Positions 95-49,728 of a stretch of 64,000 bases of DNA are shown here, piece after piece. The DNA is from Armatimonadota bacterium (lineage in GTDB: Bacteria > Sysuimicrobiota > Sysuimicrobiia > Sysuimicrobiales > Humicultoraceae): assembly GCA_031459855.1 (NCBI GenBank), contig JAVKHP010000001.1, positions 2,057,078 through 2,121,077 of the forward strand, in the 5' to 3' direction. The position numbers were made by a program, and so were the translations under genes. A model generated the notes under the pieces. The model was given only the letters and a program-made list of their open reading frames with translations. It was not told the DNA's origin and did no database searches. The number at the start of each line of letters is the position of its first letter. Position 1 is the stretch's first letter.

Positions 95-215
95 TCGACA
101 TCGGGTTGCCTGTCAGACGAACAACGCATGGCGGGGGATCGACGGGCCGACGTCCGGGAGAGGAGAGGAGTCCTGCGGTGAGGAAGACCACGGGGGAGTA
201 TCCCGGGAGGGCATC

Positions 216-1463
216 GTGATCGACTACCAGGCACGCTTCGCCCGCTTGACCCGCGTCGCCGAGCGGTCGCTCATCCGCGAGCTGCTCAAGGTCTCCCGCC
301 AGCGCGACGTGATCTCGTTCGCCGGCGGGTTCCCCGACCCGTCCACGTTCCCCGTGGCCGAGATCGCCGAGGTCACCCAGGAGGTGCTGCGCACGAGCGC
401 GGCTCTGGCCCTCCAGTACGGCCCCACCGAGGGCGATCCGGCGCTGCGCGACCAGCTGGTGGCCTGGATGGCCAAGGACGGGCTCCGGGTCAGCCGCGAG
501 CAGGTGCTGGTGACCACGTCGTCCCAGCAGGCGCTCGATCTCGTCGGCAAGGTGTTCCTCGATCCCGGCGATGTGGTGGTGGTGGAACTGCCGTCGTACC
601 TGGGCGGACTGCAGGCGTTCCGCGCCTACGGCGCCGACCTGGTGGGGGTGCCCCAGGACGACGAGGGCATCGACGCCGACCGCCTGGCACAGACCCTTCA
701 TCACCTGCAGCGCGCGGGGCGCCGGATCAAACTGCTGTACGCCGTACCCGACTTCCAGAACCCCTCGGGGGTGACCTGGAGCCGGGCCCGGCGCGAGCGT
801 CTCCTGGCCCTGGCCCGCGAGGTCGACGCCCTCGTGGTGGAGGACAACCCGTACCGCGAGATGCGGTTTGCCGGTACCGCGCCGCCGCCCATCGCCGCGC
901 TGGACGACGAGGGCCGTACCCTCTACCTCTCGACGTTCAGCAAGACGCTCGCGCCGGGCCTGCGCATCGGGTGGATCGCCGGCCCCGAACCCGTGGTGGC
1001 CCAGTGCGTCACGGTCAAGCAGGCGATGGACCTGTGCAGTCCATCCCTGACGCAGGCCATCGCGGCGGGGTTGCTCCGCCGGGGCGACCTGCTGCGGCGC
1101 CTGCCCGCGACGGTGGCGCTCTATGGGCGCAAGCGGGACGTCATGCTCGAGGCGCTGGCGCGGGAGATGCCGCCGGGTGTGACCTGGACGCGCCCGGAGG
1201 GCGGCCTGTTCCTGTGGGTGCGGCTGCCCGAGGAGCTCGATGCCGGTGCGCTGCTGCCAGCGGCCGTGGAGGCGGGGGTGATGTACGTCCCGGGTCAGGC
1301 GTTCTTCGCCGACGGCACGGGGCGCAACACGCTGCGGCTGAACTTCTCCTACCCGTCCGAGGACGAGATCCGCACGGGGATCGCGCGGCTGGCGGCGCTG
1401 GTGCGTGGGGCGGTGGCGCCTGTCCACACGATCCACAGCAGGGGAACGACCGTTTCGGATTGA
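216..1463 (+). CDS. PLP-dependent aminotransferase (class I/II, LysN/2-aminoadipate type)
   Basis: The product (415 aa) is a fold-type I aminotransferase that moves an amino group between an amino acid and a 2-oxo acid. Visible family marks are AGGFPDPSTFP near residue 30, the NPSG segment of the active site (VPDFQNPSG), the DNPYREM segment, and the PLP-binding lysine in STFSKTLAPGLRIGW. This pattern is that of the LysN / MocR-catalytic-domain group (2-aminoadipate or aromatic/branched-chain aminotransferases); no GntR DNA-binding domain precedes it. I chose the GTG at 216 because GGGAGG lies five bases upstream and the family N-terminus begins here. An upstream open frame back to 57 looks non-coding. 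The exact amino acid substrate is not readable. Confidence 0.9.
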   Translation: MIDYQARFARLTRVAERSLIRELLKVSRQRDVISFAGGFPDPSTFPVAEIAEVTQEVLRTSAALALQYGPTEGDPALRDQLVAWMAKDGLRVSREQVLVTTSSQQALDLVGKVFLDPGDVVVVELPSYLGGLQAFRAYGADLVGVPQDDEGIDADRLAQTLHHLQRAGRRIKLLYAVPDFQNPSGVTWSRARRERLLALAREVDALVVEDNPYREMRFAGTAPPPIAALDDEGRTLYLSTFSKTLAPGLRIGWIAGPEPVVAQCVTVKQAMDLCSPSLTQAIAAGLLRRGDLLRRLPATVALYGRKRDVMLEALAREMPPGVTWTRPEGGLFLWVRLPEELDAGALLPAAVEAGVMYVPGQAFFADGTGRNTLRLNFSYPSEDEIRTGIARLAALVRGAVAPVHTIHSRGTTVSD

Positions 1464-1494
1464 CGCCTGGCACTGCCCGTGGTAGCGTCAGGTC

Positions 1495-1583
1495 CGTCAG
1501 CGGCTCGCCGCTGGCTGAGGTGGGAGGAGGTACTCCTTCGGGAGCAACCCGGCCTAACTCGCCGCGGGAGCCGCTGACGTTTT
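1495..1583. terminator. Long stem-loop between convergent genes, possible terminator or structured RNA
   Basis: Positions 1495-1506 (CGTCAGCGGCTC) pair perfectly with 1568-1579, and TTTT follows at 1580-1583. The 61-nt interior holds a second hairpin (CTCC-TTCG-GGAG near 1533-1544). The 5' arm can alternatively fold on itself (AGCGGC-TC-GCCGCT, 1499-1512). It lies between the convergent aminotransferase and LCP genes, so a bidirectional terminator is the simplest reading. The large internal loop is unusual for one. Confidence 0.5.
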
Positions 1584-1675
1584 GGGCGCCGCGGGATTCC
1601 ACGGCATCGGGAAGGACGTGCAGCGGCCTGATGACGGCGCGGGCGCGCCCCCGCGGGTCGTCGCAGTCGGTGGCG

Positions 1676-3010
1676 TTAGTCGGCGCGGCGCAGCGGCGTG
1701 GCGGACAGGACGCGGGACGCGTCCCTGGCGAGGACGATGGTGATCGAGGGAGGGTGGTCGGCGGGCTCGCGGCGGATCGCCGCGCGGGGCAACGCGGTGG
1801 CGATCATATGGGCGAACCCCCGACGTCCGGTCCGGTCGATGACCGTGGTGACGTCGGCGGCGCGGGCGTCGCTGCCAACACGGATCTGGGCGAAGCCCAG
1901 CGCCGCCAGGCGCTCGGCCACCTGTCGGGCCAGCCCCGAAGTCCCGCTGGCGTTGACGACCTCCACCTGGACCGCTGCCATCTCCTCCACCGTGACCCCG
2001 TAGAACAGGTCGGCGACGAGCGCGCGCACCCGCGCCCGGTCGGGCTCCCAGTACAGGGGCGCGAACGTGCCGGGCAGGGTGTGCAGCTGCAACGGGTGGT
2101 CGCGCACGCGCAGGGCGAACACGCCCAGGGTCAGCAACTCGGCGGGGCCCAGGTTGGTATCGGTGTGCGCGCTGATGGCGCGCAGCAGGCGGGGCGCCGC
2201 CAGCAGGGTGGACGGCTGGCGCAGGTGCGCCACCAGCGCGCGCAGCAGCCGCTGCTGGCGCTCGACGCGCCCGATGTCGCCCAGGGCGTCGTGCCGGAAG
2301 CGGATGTAGCCGGTGGCCTGCCGGCCGTCCAGGCGCTGGCGGCCCTTGCGCAGGTCGATGGTGTAGCCGGCCCACGAGTCGGTGTACCGCATGTCCTTCT
2401 CGACGTCGACCTCGACGCCGCCCAGAGCGTCGACGATCTTGGCGAACGACTCCGGCCCCAGCTTGACGTAGTAGGGCACGCGCACGCCCAGCAACTGCTC
2501 CACCGTCCGGATCGTCAGCCCGACCGCGCCGTACGCGTAGGCGGCGTTGATCTTGGTCTCCCCGTGCCCGGGGATCACGGCGCGGGTGTCGCGTGGGATG
2601 GAGAGGACACCGATGCGGCCGCGCTCCGGGTCGAACGTCACCAGCGCCAGCGTGTCGGCGCGCGCGACGTTCAGCACGCGACGCCGGTGGTCGAGGGTGA
2701 CGTCGGTGCCGATGACGAGGACGTTCACGCGGTCGACCAGGCGCAGCGGCCACGCGAAGGCGGGCACGCGGGGCCGCCGCGGCATCACCTCGCGTACGGC
2801 GATCTGGCTCGCCAGGTAGAGGTAGGCGCCCGCCAGGAGGCCGCCGACGATGACGACGACCGCGGGCACGCCCCAGAGCAGCCAGCGGAGCCACCGGCGC
2901 GGGACGCGCCCGGTCGCCTGCGGCGCCAGGCCGCCCGCCGGGACGAGCGCGCCCTCGTCGCGCACGGGGTCGGGCAACGGAGCGGGAGGCAGCTGCGGGT
3001 CCTGCGTCAC
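1676..3010 (-). CDS. LytR-CpsA-Psr (LCP) family cell-envelope transferase
   Basis: LCP proteins attach lipid-linked glycopolymers to peptidoglycan on the outer face of the cytoplasmic membrane. The 444-aa product has a proline-rich cytoplasmic N-terminus and one membrane helix (about residues 40-68, WLLWGVPAVVVIVGG). The LCP domain follows, with VNVLVIGTDV, ADTLALVTFDPE, the arginine-containing SIPRDTRAVIPGHG, KINAAYAYG and FRHDALGDIGRVERQQ. A C-terminal LytR_C-type domain (VEVVNASGTSGLARQVAERL) completes it. The GTG at 3010 gives a normal N-terminus; the ribosome site is weak (GGGG). The gene is divergent from ispE and convergent with the aminotransferase. Confidence 0.9.
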   Translation of the reverse strand: MTQDPQLPPAPLPDPVRDEGALVPAGGLAPQATGRVPRRWLRWLLWGVPAVVVIVGGLLAGAYLYLASQIAVREVMPRRPRVPAFAWPLRLVDRVNVLVIGTDVTLDHRRRVLNVARADTLALVTFDPERGRIGVLSIPRDTRAVIPGHGETKINAAYAYGAVGLTIRTVEQLLGVRVPYYVKLGPESFAKIVDALGGVEVDVEKDMRYTDSWAGYTIDLRKGRQRLDGRQATGYIRFRHDALGDIGRVERQQRLLRALVAHLRQPSTLLAAPRLLRAISAHTDTNLGPAELLTLGVFALRVRDHPLQLHTLPGTFAPLYWEPDRARVRALVADLFYGVTVEEMAAVQVEVVNASGTSGLARQVAERLAALGFAQIRVGSDARAADVTTVIDRTGRRGFAHMIATALPRAAIRREPADHPPSITIVLARDASRVLSATPLRRAD

Positions 3011-3121
3011 GGCCCCTATCTTACGGGAACCCCCTGCCAGGCGCAACGAACCGCGAGAGGACTTGCGGGCCGCGACACCTAAGGAGTTAGGGCCGCCGGA
3101 TCCCGCGGGGAGGCAGTCCGC

Positions 3122-3988
3122 GTGAAGGAGCTCCGTCTCAACGCCTACGCCAAGGTCAACCTGGGGCTGAACGTCTTGCACAAGCGGGACGACGGGTACC
3201 ACGAAGTAGAGGCCGTGCTCCACACCGTGGCGCTCTACGACGTGGTCGTCCTGCGCGAGGCCGGCGATGCGATCCGCGTCGTCGCCGAGGGCGAGCCGGT
3301 GCCCGAGGGCACCGCGAACCTGGTCTTCCGCGCGGCGCAGCTGCTGCGGGAGCAGTACGGCATCACCCGGCCCGTGGAGATCCACCTGCGCAAGCAGATC
3401 CCCGTCGCCGCCGGCCTGGGCGGCGGCAGCGCGGATGCCGCCGTGACGCTGTTGGGCCTTGCGCAGCTGTGGAAGCTGCGCCTGGATGGGCGCGAGTTGC
3501 GGGCGGCGGCGGCCAAGCTCGGCTCGGACGTCCCCTTCTTCCTGGAGGGAGGGTCGGCCCTGGCCCGGGGGCGTGGGGAACGCGTCCATCCGCTGCCGGC
3601 GCTGCCGACCACGTGGGTCGTGCTGGCCCGGCCCCGCATCCCGATCCTGACGGAATGGGCCTACGCCCACTTCCAGCCCGCCGAGGTCACGCGGCGCCCC
3701 GACATCCCGGCGCTCGTCGACGCCGTGCGCCGCGGCGACGTGCCGGCGGTGGGGCGGCTGATGGGCAACGTGTTCGAGGAGTTCATCGCCGCGCGCCATC
3801 CCGTCGTCGCCGAGCTGAAGCAACGGATCCTGCGGGGCGAGGCGTACGGTGCCTGCATGACCGGGACCGGTCCCACCGTGGTGGGCCTGATGGCCAACGA
3901 GGCCGCGGCCCGCCGCGTGGCGGACGACTGCGGGAGCGTCCCCGACGTGGACGTTTTCGTGACCAAGACGTTCGCGGAGGAACGATAG
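3122..3988 (+). CDS. ispE: 4-diphosphocytidyl-2-C-methyl-D-erythritol kinase
   Basis: IspE phosphorylates CDP-methylerythritol in the MEP isoprenoid pathway. The 288-aa product is a GHMP kinase of normal length. It has the N-terminal substrate motif AYAKVNLGLNV, RDDGYHEVE, the ATP-binding glycine loop PVAAGLGGGSADAA near residue 95, GSDVPFF, and the C-terminal GACMTGTGPTVVGL. The GTG start at 3122 has GGGGAGG eight bases upstream. It begins a plus-strand group (ispE, NTP transferase, purR, SUKH gene). ispE next to purR is a familiar Gram-positive arrangement. Confidence 0.97.
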   Translation: MKELRLNAYAKVNLGLNVLHKRDDGYHEVEAVLHTVALYDVVVLREAGDAIRVVAEGEPVPEGTANLVFRAAQLLREQYGITRPVEIHLRKQIPVAAGLGGGSADAAVTLLGLAQLWKLRLDGRELRAAAAKLGSDVPFFLEGGSALARGRGERVHPLPALPTTWVVLARPRIPILTEWAYAHFQPAEVTRRPDIPALVDAVRRGDVPAVGRLMGNVFEEFIAARHPVVAELKQRILRGEAYGACMTGTGPTVVGLMANEAAARRVADDCGSVPDVDVFVTKTFAEER

Positions 3989-7958: not shown

Positions 7959-9278
7959 GTGGCCGGGGCCCGGCGAGGGCACCTGCCGATCGTGCTCGTG
8001 GCGCTGGCGGCGGCGCTGGCCGTCTACGCCGCGAGCCGCGCAGTGGCGGACCGGCGCGCGGCGAACGCGCCGTACGTCGAGGGCTCGGGCACGATCGAGG
8101 CCACGCAGGTGCAGATCGCGGCCAGGATCGCCGGCCGCGTACGCGACGTCACCGTCGACGCCGGGGACGCCGTCCGCGCCGGGCAGGTGCTGGTCCGCCT
8201 CGATGCGGCCGAGCTGGACGCCCAGGTAGCGCAAGCGGATGCCGGCGTGGCCGCGGCGCGCACGCGGCTCGCGCAGGCGCAGGCGGCGCTGCGCGCCCAG
8301 CGTACGCAGACCGCGGCCGCGCTGGCCCAGGCCGAGGCTGCCGTGCAGGCCGCAGCCGCCCGGGTGGGCCAGGCCCGCGAGGCATTGCGGCTCCAGGAAG
8401 ACCAGGCGCGTCAGCAGGTCGCACAGGCACAGGCTGCCGTGGCGGCGGCCGAGGCCGCGCGCCAGGCGGCCCGTGCCGCGCGCGACGCCGTGCGCGCGAA
8501 CCTCGAGAAGGCCCGACGAGACCTGGTTCGGGCGCAGGCGCTCTTCCGCGAGGGCGCAGTCGCCGCCCAGGCCGTGGACGCGGCCCGGGCGGCGGTCGAC
8601 GCCCTTGCGGCGCAGGAGGCCGCCGCAGCCGCGCAGGAAGCGGCGGCGGCGCAGCAGGTCGAGCAGGCCCGCGCGGCGCTGGCGCTGGCCGAGGCCGCCC
8701 GGCGCCAGGTGGCCATCCGTCGCCAGGACCTGGCAGCGGCGCTGGCCCAGCGGGAGCAGGCCGATGCTGCAGCGGCGAGCGCCCGCGCCGGCCGTGACCT
8801 CGTGGCCCAGCGCCAGGAGGAGGTGGCGGCCGCGGCGGCGGCGGTCGCCAGCGCCGAGGCCGCGCTGCGGCACGCGCTGGCCCTGCGGGCCAACACCGTG
8901 CTGCGCTCGCCCATCGACGGCGTGGTGCTGGCGCGGACGGTAGAGCCAGGCGAGGTGGTCGGCGCGGGCATCCCCCTGCTCACCGTGGCCGACCTGCGCC
9001 GCGTGTGGCTGCGCGTCTTCGTGCCGGAAGCGCAACTCGGCCGGTTGCGGCCCGGTGCCCCGGCGCAGGTCTTCGTGGACGCGTTCCCCGGACGGCCGTT
9101 CCCGGGCACCGTCACCGAGATCGCCAGCCAGGCGGAGTTCACGCCCCGCAACGTGCAGACCCGTGAGGAGCGGGTGAAGCTGGTCTTCAGCGTGCGCATC
9201 ACGCTGGAGAACCCCGCCGGGCTGCTCAAGCCCGGCATGCCCGCCGATGCCCGGATCACACTGGCCGGGCCGCCATAG
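7959..9278 (+). CDS. HlyD/YbhG-type membrane fusion protein
   Basis: This is the periplasmic adaptor that joins the ABC exporter to the TolC channel. The 439-aa product has an N-terminal anchor helix (residues about 8-27, LPIVLVALAAALAVYAA). The first half of a lipoyl/barrel-sandwich domain follows (GRVRDVTVDAGDAVRAGQVL). A very long Ala/Gln-rich coiled coil runs from about residue 75 to 300. The second lipoyl half (LRSPIDGVVLARTVEPGEVV) and a beta-barrel (FVPEAQLGRLRPGAPAQVFV) end the protein. The coiled coil is longer than in many RND adaptors, as expected for ABC-2 (YbhG/MacA-like) partners. It starts with GTG 10 bases after tolC and overlaps the next gene by one base. Confidence 0.92.
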   Translation: MAGARRGHLPIVLVALAAALAVYAASRAVADRRAANAPYVEGSGTIEATQVQIAARIAGRVRDVTVDAGDAVRAGQVLVRLDAAELDAQVAQADAGVAAARTRLAQAQAALRAQRTQTAAALAQAEAAVQAAAARVGQAREALRLQEDQARQQVAQAQAAVAAAEAARQAARAARDAVRANLEKARRDLVRAQALFREGAVAAQAVDAARAAVDALAAQEAAAAAQEAAAAQQVEQARAALALAEAARRQVAIRRQDLAAALAQREQADAAAASARAGRDLVAQRQEEVAAAAAAVASAEAALRHALALRANTVLRSPIDGVVLARTVEPGEVVGAGIPLLTVADLRRVWLRVFVPEAQLGRLRPGAPAQVFVDAFPGRPFPGTVTEIASQAEFTPRNVQTREERVKLVFSVRITLENPAGLLKPGMPADARITLAGPP

Positions 9279-10270
9279 TGGGGCACCTGACCGCAGCTCG
9301 TGTTCCGGCGTCTGGCGGCGGCCCGGTGCCACCGGCCGTCGAGGCGCAAGGGCTGACGCGGGTCTTCGGTACCGTGACGGCCGTGGCGGGGCTCGACCTG
9401 CAGGTGTCCGCGGGCGAGGTGTTCGGGCTGGTGGGTCCCGACGGCGCGGGCAAGACGACCTTCTTCCGGATGCTGGCCGGCGTGCTCGACCCCACCGCAG
9501 GGCGCATCCGGATTGCGGGGTGTGACCTCGCCACAGCGCCCGAGGTCGCGCGGTCCCAGCTGGGGTACATGCCCCAGGCGTTCGCGCTCTACCGCGACCT
9601 CAGCGTCGTCGAGAACCTCCGCTTCTTCGCCGAGGCCTACCAGGTGCCCCCACGCGCCATGGCCGCCCGCTTCCAGCGACTCCTGGCCTTCGCACGGCTG
9701 GAACCGTTCGCGGACACGCTGGTCGAACACCTCTCCGGCGGCATGAAGCAGAAGCTGGCGCTGGCCTGCGCGCTCCTCCACGAGCCCCAGGTGCTCGTGC
9801 TGGACGAGCCGACGACCGGCGTCGACCCCGTGTCGCGCCGCGAGTTCTGGGACCTGCTCTACGACCTGAACCGGCGCGGCGCCACCGTACTGGTCGCGAC
9901 GCCCTACATGGACGAGGCCGAGCGGTGCACGCGCATCGGCCTCCTCTACGGCGGACGGCTGCTCGCCGTCGATACCCCCGACGCCCTGAAGGCGCAGGTC
10001 GCTGGCGAGCTCCTCGAGGTGCGGGCCGAACCGCGGCGGCGGGCGCTGGCCGTGGCCCGCGCGCTGCCGGAGGTCCGCACCGGCAGCATCTTCGGCGACG
10101 CGCTGCACCTGACGGTTCCCGACGCCGCCAGGGCGGCACCGCGCGTCCGGGCGGCGCTCGAGGCCCAGGGCATCGCCGTGGCAGCGGTGGCGCCAGCAGC
10201 CCCGTCGTTGGAGGACGCCTTCATCGCGCTCCTGGCCGCTGCGCCCGCCGGGCCGGACGGCCACTCGTGA
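9278..10270 (+). CDS. ABC-2 exporter ATPase, first (degenerate H-loop)
   Basis: The 330-aa product is a nucleotide-binding domain for the efflux operon. It has Walker A (GPDGAGKTTFFRML), Q-loop region (GYMPQAF), signature LSGGMKQK and Walker B VLVLDEPTTGVDP. The H-loop, normally TTHYMDEAE, reads ATPYMDEAE here, so the switch histidine is proline. The following gene is a second ATPase with intact motifs. Together they match the two halves of E. coli YbhF, here as separate polypeptides. The GTG start overlaps the TAG of the adaptor gene by one base. Confidence 0.92.
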   Translation: MGHLTAARVPASGGGPVPPAVEAQGLTRVFGTVTAVAGLDLQVSAGEVFGLVGPDGAGKTTFFRMLAGVLDPTAGRIRIAGCDLATAPEVARSQLGYMPQAFALYRDLSVVENLRFFAEAYQVPPRAMAARFQRLLAFARLEPFADTLVEHLSGGMKQKLALACALLHEPQVLVLDEPTTGVDPVSRREFWDLLYDLNRRGATVLVATPYMDEAERCTRIGLLYGGRLLAVDTPDALKAQVAGELLEVRAEPRRRALAVARALPEVRTGSIFGDALHLTVPDAARAAPRVRAALEAQGIAVAAVAPAAPSLEDAFIALLAAAPAGPDGHS

Positions 10271-48707: not shown

Positions 48708-48851
48708 CTACTGCACGACCACCCGCCGGCCCGCCAGGATCAGGATCAGGATGAAGATCGCCAGCGCGACGACGAAGGCGTCGGCCTGGCCATCTTCGCT
48801 ACCCGCGCGCCGTACAAGCCCGCGGATCGCGTCGAGCATCCAGATGGGCAT
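48708..48851 (-). CDS. 47-residue single-pass membrane peptide, paralogue A
   Basis: The peptide has an amphipathic N-terminus (MPIWMLDAIRGLVRR), an acidic hinge (SEDGQADAF), one membrane helix and a fixed tail LAGRRVVVQ. ATG 48851 follows GGAGGTGAGCCCG. A second gene at 49010-49153 encodes a peptide of the same length, layout and tail with the same ribosome site, which strongly supports that both are real. The GQ before a hydrophobic helix recalls class III (Flp-type) pilin signal segments, but the usual Glu is missing. The role is unknown. Confidence 0.65.
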   Translation of the reverse strand: MPIWMLDAIRGLVRRAGSEDGQADAFVVALAIFILILILAGRRVVVQ

Positions 48852-48927
48852 CGGGCTCACCTCCGGACCACCGCGGGCCGGACCTCCGTGGGCGGGACCT
48901 CCATCGGCCGTCCACCGGTCGGCCCAC

Positions 48928-48943
48928 GAGCACACGTGTGCTC
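48928..48943. promoter_or_regulatory. 16-bp perfect palindrome GAGCACACGTGTGCTC
   Basis: The palindrome lies 77 bases upstream of peptide gene A and is followed at 48947-48956 by a partial copy (GGCACACGTG). Such spacing fits a dimeric repressor or activator site for the minus-strand peptide gene. A similar ACCACGTGTGCT stands at 32201-32212. Confidence 0.5.
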
Positions 48944-49009
48944 TCGGGCACACGTGGACTCTCGGTCAGTCTGTTGTGCGTGGCACAGGGCGGCTACAGC
49001 GGTTCCCGT

Positions 49010-49153
49010 TCACTGCACGACCACCCGCCGGCCCGCCAGGATCAGCCAGAGGACGAAGAGCACCAGCAGCCAGGTGAGGACTTCCTGCCCGCGCTCGTCG
49101 CGATGGAAGCGCACCAGCCCTGCACGCACGACCTGCTGCAGCCAGAGGATCAA
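49010..49153 (-). CDS. 47-residue single-pass membrane peptide, paralogue B (TTG start)
   Basis: This peptide has the same plan as paralogue A: an amphipathic head (ILWLQQVVRAGLVRF), a charged hinge HRDERGQE, one membrane helix (LTWLLVLFVLWLI) and LAGRRVVVQ. The start is TTG at 49151-49153 behind AAGGAGGTGAGGCCG, directly alignable with the leader of paralogue A (GGAGGTGAGCCCG-ATG). The last 27 or so coding bases of the two genes are nearly identical, so a recent duplication or strong selection on the tail is likely. Confidence 0.6.
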   Translation of the reverse strand: MILWLQQVVRAGLVRFHRDERGQEVLTWLLVLFVLWLILAGRRVVVQ

Positions 49154-49728
49154 CGGCCTCACCTCCTTCGACCTTCGACGCTTCGACACTACTCTACCCG
49201 GTTCGGGCGTTCGCGCAAACATGCACCGCGCTGGCGGACACCGCACCACCAGACGCACGGTCATGGGAGCGCAGGCGACCGTAGCCCCGCCAGGCTGCAA
49301 GGGGGCGTCGGCCTCCAGCCACGGGCCGGGAACAGACGACACGACGCCGCGGTGTCCTGGCCGCCTGCGTGCCCGGCCCGCTCCTCATACGGGCAGGCGG
49401 CCGCGGGGGTTCCCGGGAGCAAGGCGCAGGAGGACGTGATCGTGTGGGATCCGTCGCCGAATTGCAGCTCGTGGGCGATGAGCCTGCCGTCCAGCGGGAG
49501 CCCGCACAGCGCGCATGGCCGTGTAGGATCGGCCATCGCTCGGGTTGCGGAGACCGGTGGGTCCGCGTCCGCGCCCGGTCAGGTGTGGGTTTCCCTGCGG
49601 TACCGTGCCCCGTTGCAGGGATCGGCAGGCTGTGCGCAGGAGATATGGCGCACTGACAGTGTGCCCGGCTGCGACGGCGAGGCGGGCGCCGTGCGTCGGT
49701 TGGGGATCCTTGCGTCGGTAAGGGATCC
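49154..49728. other. 575-bp region between peptide B and the M20 peptidase
   Basis: It holds the leader of peptide B, one doubtful minus-strand reading frame (49261-49536) and the tandem repeat that runs into the M20 start. No RNA gene or clear terminator is visible. Confidence 0.5.
49261..49536 (-). CDS. Possible small cysteine-containing protein (doubtful)
   Basis: The 91-aa frame begins with PCALCGLPLDGRLIAHEL, which looks like the knuckle of a small zinc ribbon, and continues FGDGSHTITSSCALL. The second half is Ala/Pro-rich and unconvincing. No ribosome site precedes the ATG. It lies upstream of peptide B on the same strand. It may be a real short gene, a gene remnant or chance coding in GC-rich DNA. 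Confidence 0.25.
   Translation of the reverse strand: MADPTRPCALCGLPLDGRLIAHELQFGDGSHTITSSCALLPGTPAAACPYEERAGHAGGQDTAASCRLFPARGWRPTPPCSLAGLRSPALP

Follow-up and report, generated by a model that had tools for sequence, protein, structure and literature searches.

Small membrane proteins are a known kind of gene product, and several described groups resemble the peptides considered here in size or in build. CydX and KdpF are small accessory subunits of membrane complexes, and the SRPBCC proteins of the CoxG type are membrane-associated. Known type I toxins are hydrophobic, shorter than 60 aa and present as tandem and relocated copies (PMC8309996), and Flp or type IVc pilins are defined by the processing motif GXXXXEY (PMC10934763). 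The two peptides presented here belong to a new, unnamed family of small membrane proteins restricted to the little-studied bacterial lineage CSP1-3. That this family is genuine is firmly established; its mechanism is only weakly so.

Two co-linear genes in the window

The window, i.e. the whole 64,000-nt stretch of DNA that was analysed, carries on its minus strand two open reading frames of equal length, referred to as peptides A and B. They lie where an earlier note on this DNA had placed them, and the TTG start that it ascribed to one of the two belongs to A. The features are as follows, in minus-strand order.

49154..49168, minus strand: ribosome-binding region of peptide A, GGAGGTGAGGCCG preceding TTG
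49010..49153, minus strand: peptide A gene, 47 aa, TTG start, MILWLQQVVRAGLVRFHRDERGQEVLTWLLVLFVLWLILAGRRVVVQ
48922..48949, minus strand: palindrome between A and B, centre ~GAGAGCACACGTGTGCTCGTG, possible hairpin after A
48852..48866, minus strand: ribosome-binding region of peptide B, GGAGGTGAGCCCG preceding ATG
48708..48851, minus strand: peptide B gene, 47 aa, ATG start, MPIWMLDAIRGLVRRAGSEDGQADAFVVALAIFILILILAGRRVVVQ

The matched leader GGAGGTGAG-CCG and the identical tail LAGRRVVVQ, both described earlier, are indeed common to A and B. At the DNA level, the tails form a 56-nt repeat (88%) and the leaders a 29-nt repeat (79%), each with a spacing of 302 nt, and this equal offset identifies A and B as co-linear copies. 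The statement that such genes fall below usual annotation limits was too strong, since common gene callers take genes from ~90 nt upward. The palindrome has no T-run and is not called a terminator; a promoter and terminator scan of the window returned no hit. On either side of the pair lie an adenine deaminase gene and an M20 peptidase gene. An M20 neighbour is absent from the loci of the adenine deaminase relatives (flanks of ~1.5 kb), so the flanking gene order of the window was not seen elsewhere.

Upstream of the pair, a 91-aa cysteine-containing frame (49261-49536, minus strand) has no relatives in 42 related genomes and no Pfam or NCBIfam match, and is thus probably not a conserved gene.

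A family confined to one order

Peptide A as the only query retrieved peptide B (4.6e-5) and a series of relatives, the best of them at 1.1e-13; by tblastn, the relatives lie in genomes of the family and order of the window genome. A profile built from 18 sequences, both window peptides among them, was searched in 386 genomes. It is positive in 22, all inside the 43 genomes of the order (the CSP1-3 lineage), and in none of the 343 genomes outside it. The window peptides match this profile with E values of 3e-18 and 3e-19, both being among its building rows. Neither Pfam, NCBIfam nor PADLOC gives a family match to the peptides, and PHROGs gives matches at chance level only; sub-threshold Pfam, PHROGs and NCBIfam matches were dismissed as weak and inconsistent.

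Most relatives keep a common frame, with the stop directly after the tail. A GGAGG lies upstream of 20 of the 25 copies, against a window background of 2.0% among start-like codons. Each of the 13 orthologous pairs compared has a dN/dS below 1 (0.04 to 0.55), although some pairs share genomes and are not all independent; third-position changes predominate in most pairs. Taken together, the common frame and stop, the GGAGG sites, the dN/dS values and the third-position changes lead to the conclusion, drawn from sequence comparison, that A and B are in all probability translated and selected proteins. Between A and B themselves, dN (0.67) exceeds dS (0.27), which is read as near-identical tails plus diverged heads; positive selection is not claimed.

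Small open reading frames are common in high-GC DNA, and the pair could in principle consist of chance frames or belong to a conserved RNA element. The codon-position pattern, the shared stop position, the ribosome sites and the tail conserved in 25 copies all speak against this, as does the lack of an Rfam match. The dN/dS pattern and the shared frame ends weigh so strongly against it that the reading can practically be set aside. The earlier view of A and B as real, conserved small membrane peptides is borne out: in the related genomes probed by tblastn, as that note had advised, the frame is kept under purifying selection, and the profile has relatives in 22 of the 43 genomes of the order.

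Peptide architecture and the pilin reading

Family members have 42-51 aa and a single hydrophobic helix. The best 17-residue mean hydropathy, measured on the relatives, is 2.6-3.2, with one strongly hydrophobic segment per peptide, in agreement with the single membrane helix proposed earlier. A short charged break, D/N-E-x-G-Q, and the tail (G/N)RR-V-V-V/I-Q at the stop complete the family pattern, and the window peptides have both the G-Q break and the one helix. The end of the peptide hardly varies: R42 is invariant, and V45 and Q47, like G22 in the break, are each conserved at 90% or more. An AlphaFold model of peptide A (49010-49153) has helices at 2-16 and 23-46 separated by the break HRDERGQ, with modest confidence (pLDDT 70). 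The amphipathic character attributed to the head is not significant when compared with shuffled sequences. In one locus (L035, G001:C33, after 8357), a second-position copy near the contig end appears truncated and lacks GRRVVVQ, by loss or at an assembly edge.

The break before the helix recalls pilin leaders, and the earlier note had put forward Flp-like pilin precursors. What stood of this proposal is a short resemblance: the leader W-L..RLHRDE.GQ is similar to that of genuine Flp pilins found in this order (hhalign probability 36-80% over only 14-17 columns), and pilus or secretion ATPases occur in nearly all genomes. GXXXXEY, however, is absent from all 25 copies, none of which has E at +5 after the G (0/25), and in the orthologue of G014 not even the -1 glycine motif is present. 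The Flp_Fap model (PF04964) matches 0 of 18 members and has 0 matches in G000, the window genome. Nor did the check for linked prepilin peptidase or tad genes that the note had advised bring any to light near the peptide loci: where Peptidase A24 and the peptide share a contig (G004, G006, G020), they are 29-81 kb apart, and the distance to the window pair is ~665 kb. Finally, we know of no mature pilin as short as the ~25 aa that cleavage would leave. That the peptide is a relic or minimal pilin or pseudopilin of the Flp/type IVc kind, cleaved at G|Q, is accordingly improbable.

Peptidase_A24 is undetected in three peptide-bearing genomes of genus g19 (G024, G027, G030), owing to a diverged peptidase or shared assembly gaps; this non-detection weighs little, because T2SSE-type ATPases are present there. 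Weak tblastn matches in family f7 of the order (G028) proved to be genuine Flp pilins and were not counted as family members. Locus L054 of that genome (C11, ~8600-9400, minus strand) holds a tandem array of four such genuine pilin genes (HRDEQGQGTVEYVLLIL...).

The SRPBCC locus and its exceptions

In 20 of the 22 genomes, across several families, the peptide gene lies directly behind a gene for an SRPBCC/START-like lipid-binding protein of ~155 aa, which matches Pfam Polyketide_cyc/Polyketide_cyc2 (cyclase / lipid transport) and has 2d4r (TTHA0849) as its nearest solved chain. The two genes overlap or are up to 57 nt apart, except in G004, where the gap is 130 nt. Where the contig continues, the usual order is SRPBCC, peptide, a DegT-type aminotransferase and what we take, on reading its sequence, to be a Gfo/Idh-type oxidoreductase. 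Several peptide copies have a stable hairpin on their 3′ side. A contig collection was also searched with the SRPBCC alignment, i.e. via SRPBCC loci; in 59 SRPBCC loci of other lineages, no hydrophobic small ORF lies behind the SRPBCC gene.

The association has exceptions. In sixteen genomes of the order, the SRPBCC gene is present but no peptide was detected; G013, which is 100% complete, has an unlinked peptide copy and no SRPBCC match; and G004 has a second, unlinked copy besides the SRPBCC-linked one. In the window genome G000, the SRPBCC locus at 2.74 Mb is intact, in the ancestral gene order, and without peptide (presumably a mutase, as named from its sequence, then mutase small subunit, a 262-aa gene, SRPBCC, DegT and Gfo/Idh), ~640 kb from the peptide pair. 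G007, of the same family, has A followed by B between SRPBCC and DegT at the corresponding locus. In a tree of the short peptides, A of G000 joins the copies that stand first in G001, G004 and G007, and B joins the second-position copy of G007 (0.86); the supports for these groupings are 0.85-0.89, only moderate because the sequences are short. On the simplest reading, an old tandem pair would have been transferred together to its present site in the window.

Near the orphan peptide of G013 (L210, G013:C15), ORFs that we read as IS110-like transposase, primase-like and integrase-like occupy 174-3645, a few kb away, which hints that mobile DNA may carry orphan copies along.

Relocation of this kind also bears on a type I toxin-like, membrane-damaging peptide maintained as tandem copies. 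With 42-51 aa, one helix and a hydropathy of 2.6-3.2, the family has the size and the helix of such toxins, and its tandem and relocated copies recall the behaviour of known examples (PMC8309996). The position of the G013 copy, some kb from ORFs that we read as IS110-like and integrase-like, also counts in favour of this reading. The family is nevertheless under purifying selection at a conserved operon position, and PADLOC has no match. The window locus itself has neither a sigma-70-like promoter, although promoters of this lineage may differ, nor an antisense RNA family or Rfam match. A toxin is an unlikely identity.

A possible membrane dock for an SRPBCC protein

The most specific mechanistic reading is that the peptide is a lineage-specific, single-pass membrane microprotein, an accessory that would give the SRPBCC protein a docking site at the membrane. 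Because of the separable cases, its probability is put at about one in three. The N-terminal helix would lie on the cytoplasmic face and the second helix would span the membrane, with the RR-VVVQ end as a putative recognition or positioning element. As a small accessory subunit, the peptide might act by contacting a partner in the membrane or a lipid carrier, docking the SRPBCC protein for pickup or delivery of a lipid or quinone. The operonic bias (20/22), the fixed tail, dN/dS below 1, the confinement to 22 of 386 genomes and the GGAGG sites (20/25) argue for this; the G013 peptide without SRPBCC, the 16 genomes with the reverse and the ~640 kb separation in G000 argue against it. In G000, the pair would have left the SRPBCC operon to be encoded on its own, and, being outside that operon, the peptide there would have to work in trans.

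Those same separable cases (the relocated pair of G000, the extra orphan of G004, the G013 peptide without SRPBCC match) place on a level with it a small regulator that works autonomously on some other membrane protein, be it a transporter, a sensor or a protease, and for which the SRPBCC operon would be only the ancestral transcriptional host. The small regulators of membrane proteins named in the earlier note are compatible with the data in this sense. Against such a regulator, 20 of 22 genomes from several families keep the SRPBCC adjacency, a higher share than expected if the host gene were neutral. Our best guess is a small accessory or tether at the membrane that originated in the SRPBCC operon but is separable from it. 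A bolder version of the docking reading, in which one lineage evolved a split, detachable tether for a START/SRPBCC lipid carrier, a peptide of its own of ~47 aa that brings the carrier to the membrane and was then duplicated and relocated, is rather doubtful.

The lineage, which is known from environmental genomes, thereby gains a well-supported unnamed microprotein family with a candidate partner, the SRPBCC protein, and a fixed C-terminal motif open to mutation. Natural experiments are at hand: one genome has the peptide without SRPBCC, many have the reverse and one has a relocated tandem pair.

Comparison with known systems

Membrane-associated type I toxins of the Ldr, ZorO, Fst and SprG types share with the family a length below 60 aa, a single hydrophobic helix and tandem copies. 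They differ from it in that the peptide family has a conserved operon position, a strict C-terminal motif and no antisense RNA evidence. Flp or type IVc pilins (PF04964) are likewise small, with one helix and an RDE-x-GQ leader before the hydrophobic stretch, and true pilins with this leader occur in the same order (family f7, L054). The peptides, in contrast, lack GXXXXEY and a tad operon, carry a fixed GRRVVVQ directly after the helix and are SRPBCC-linked. CydX and KdpF are also single-pass peptides, usually operonic with their partner, but no sequence relation to them was seen, and the candidate partner here is a soluble-type SRPBCC protein. The CoxG-type proteins combine an SRPBCC lipid- or quinone-binding domain with a membrane anchor; in the present family, the helix and the SRPBCC domain are encoded by separate genes as putative partners.
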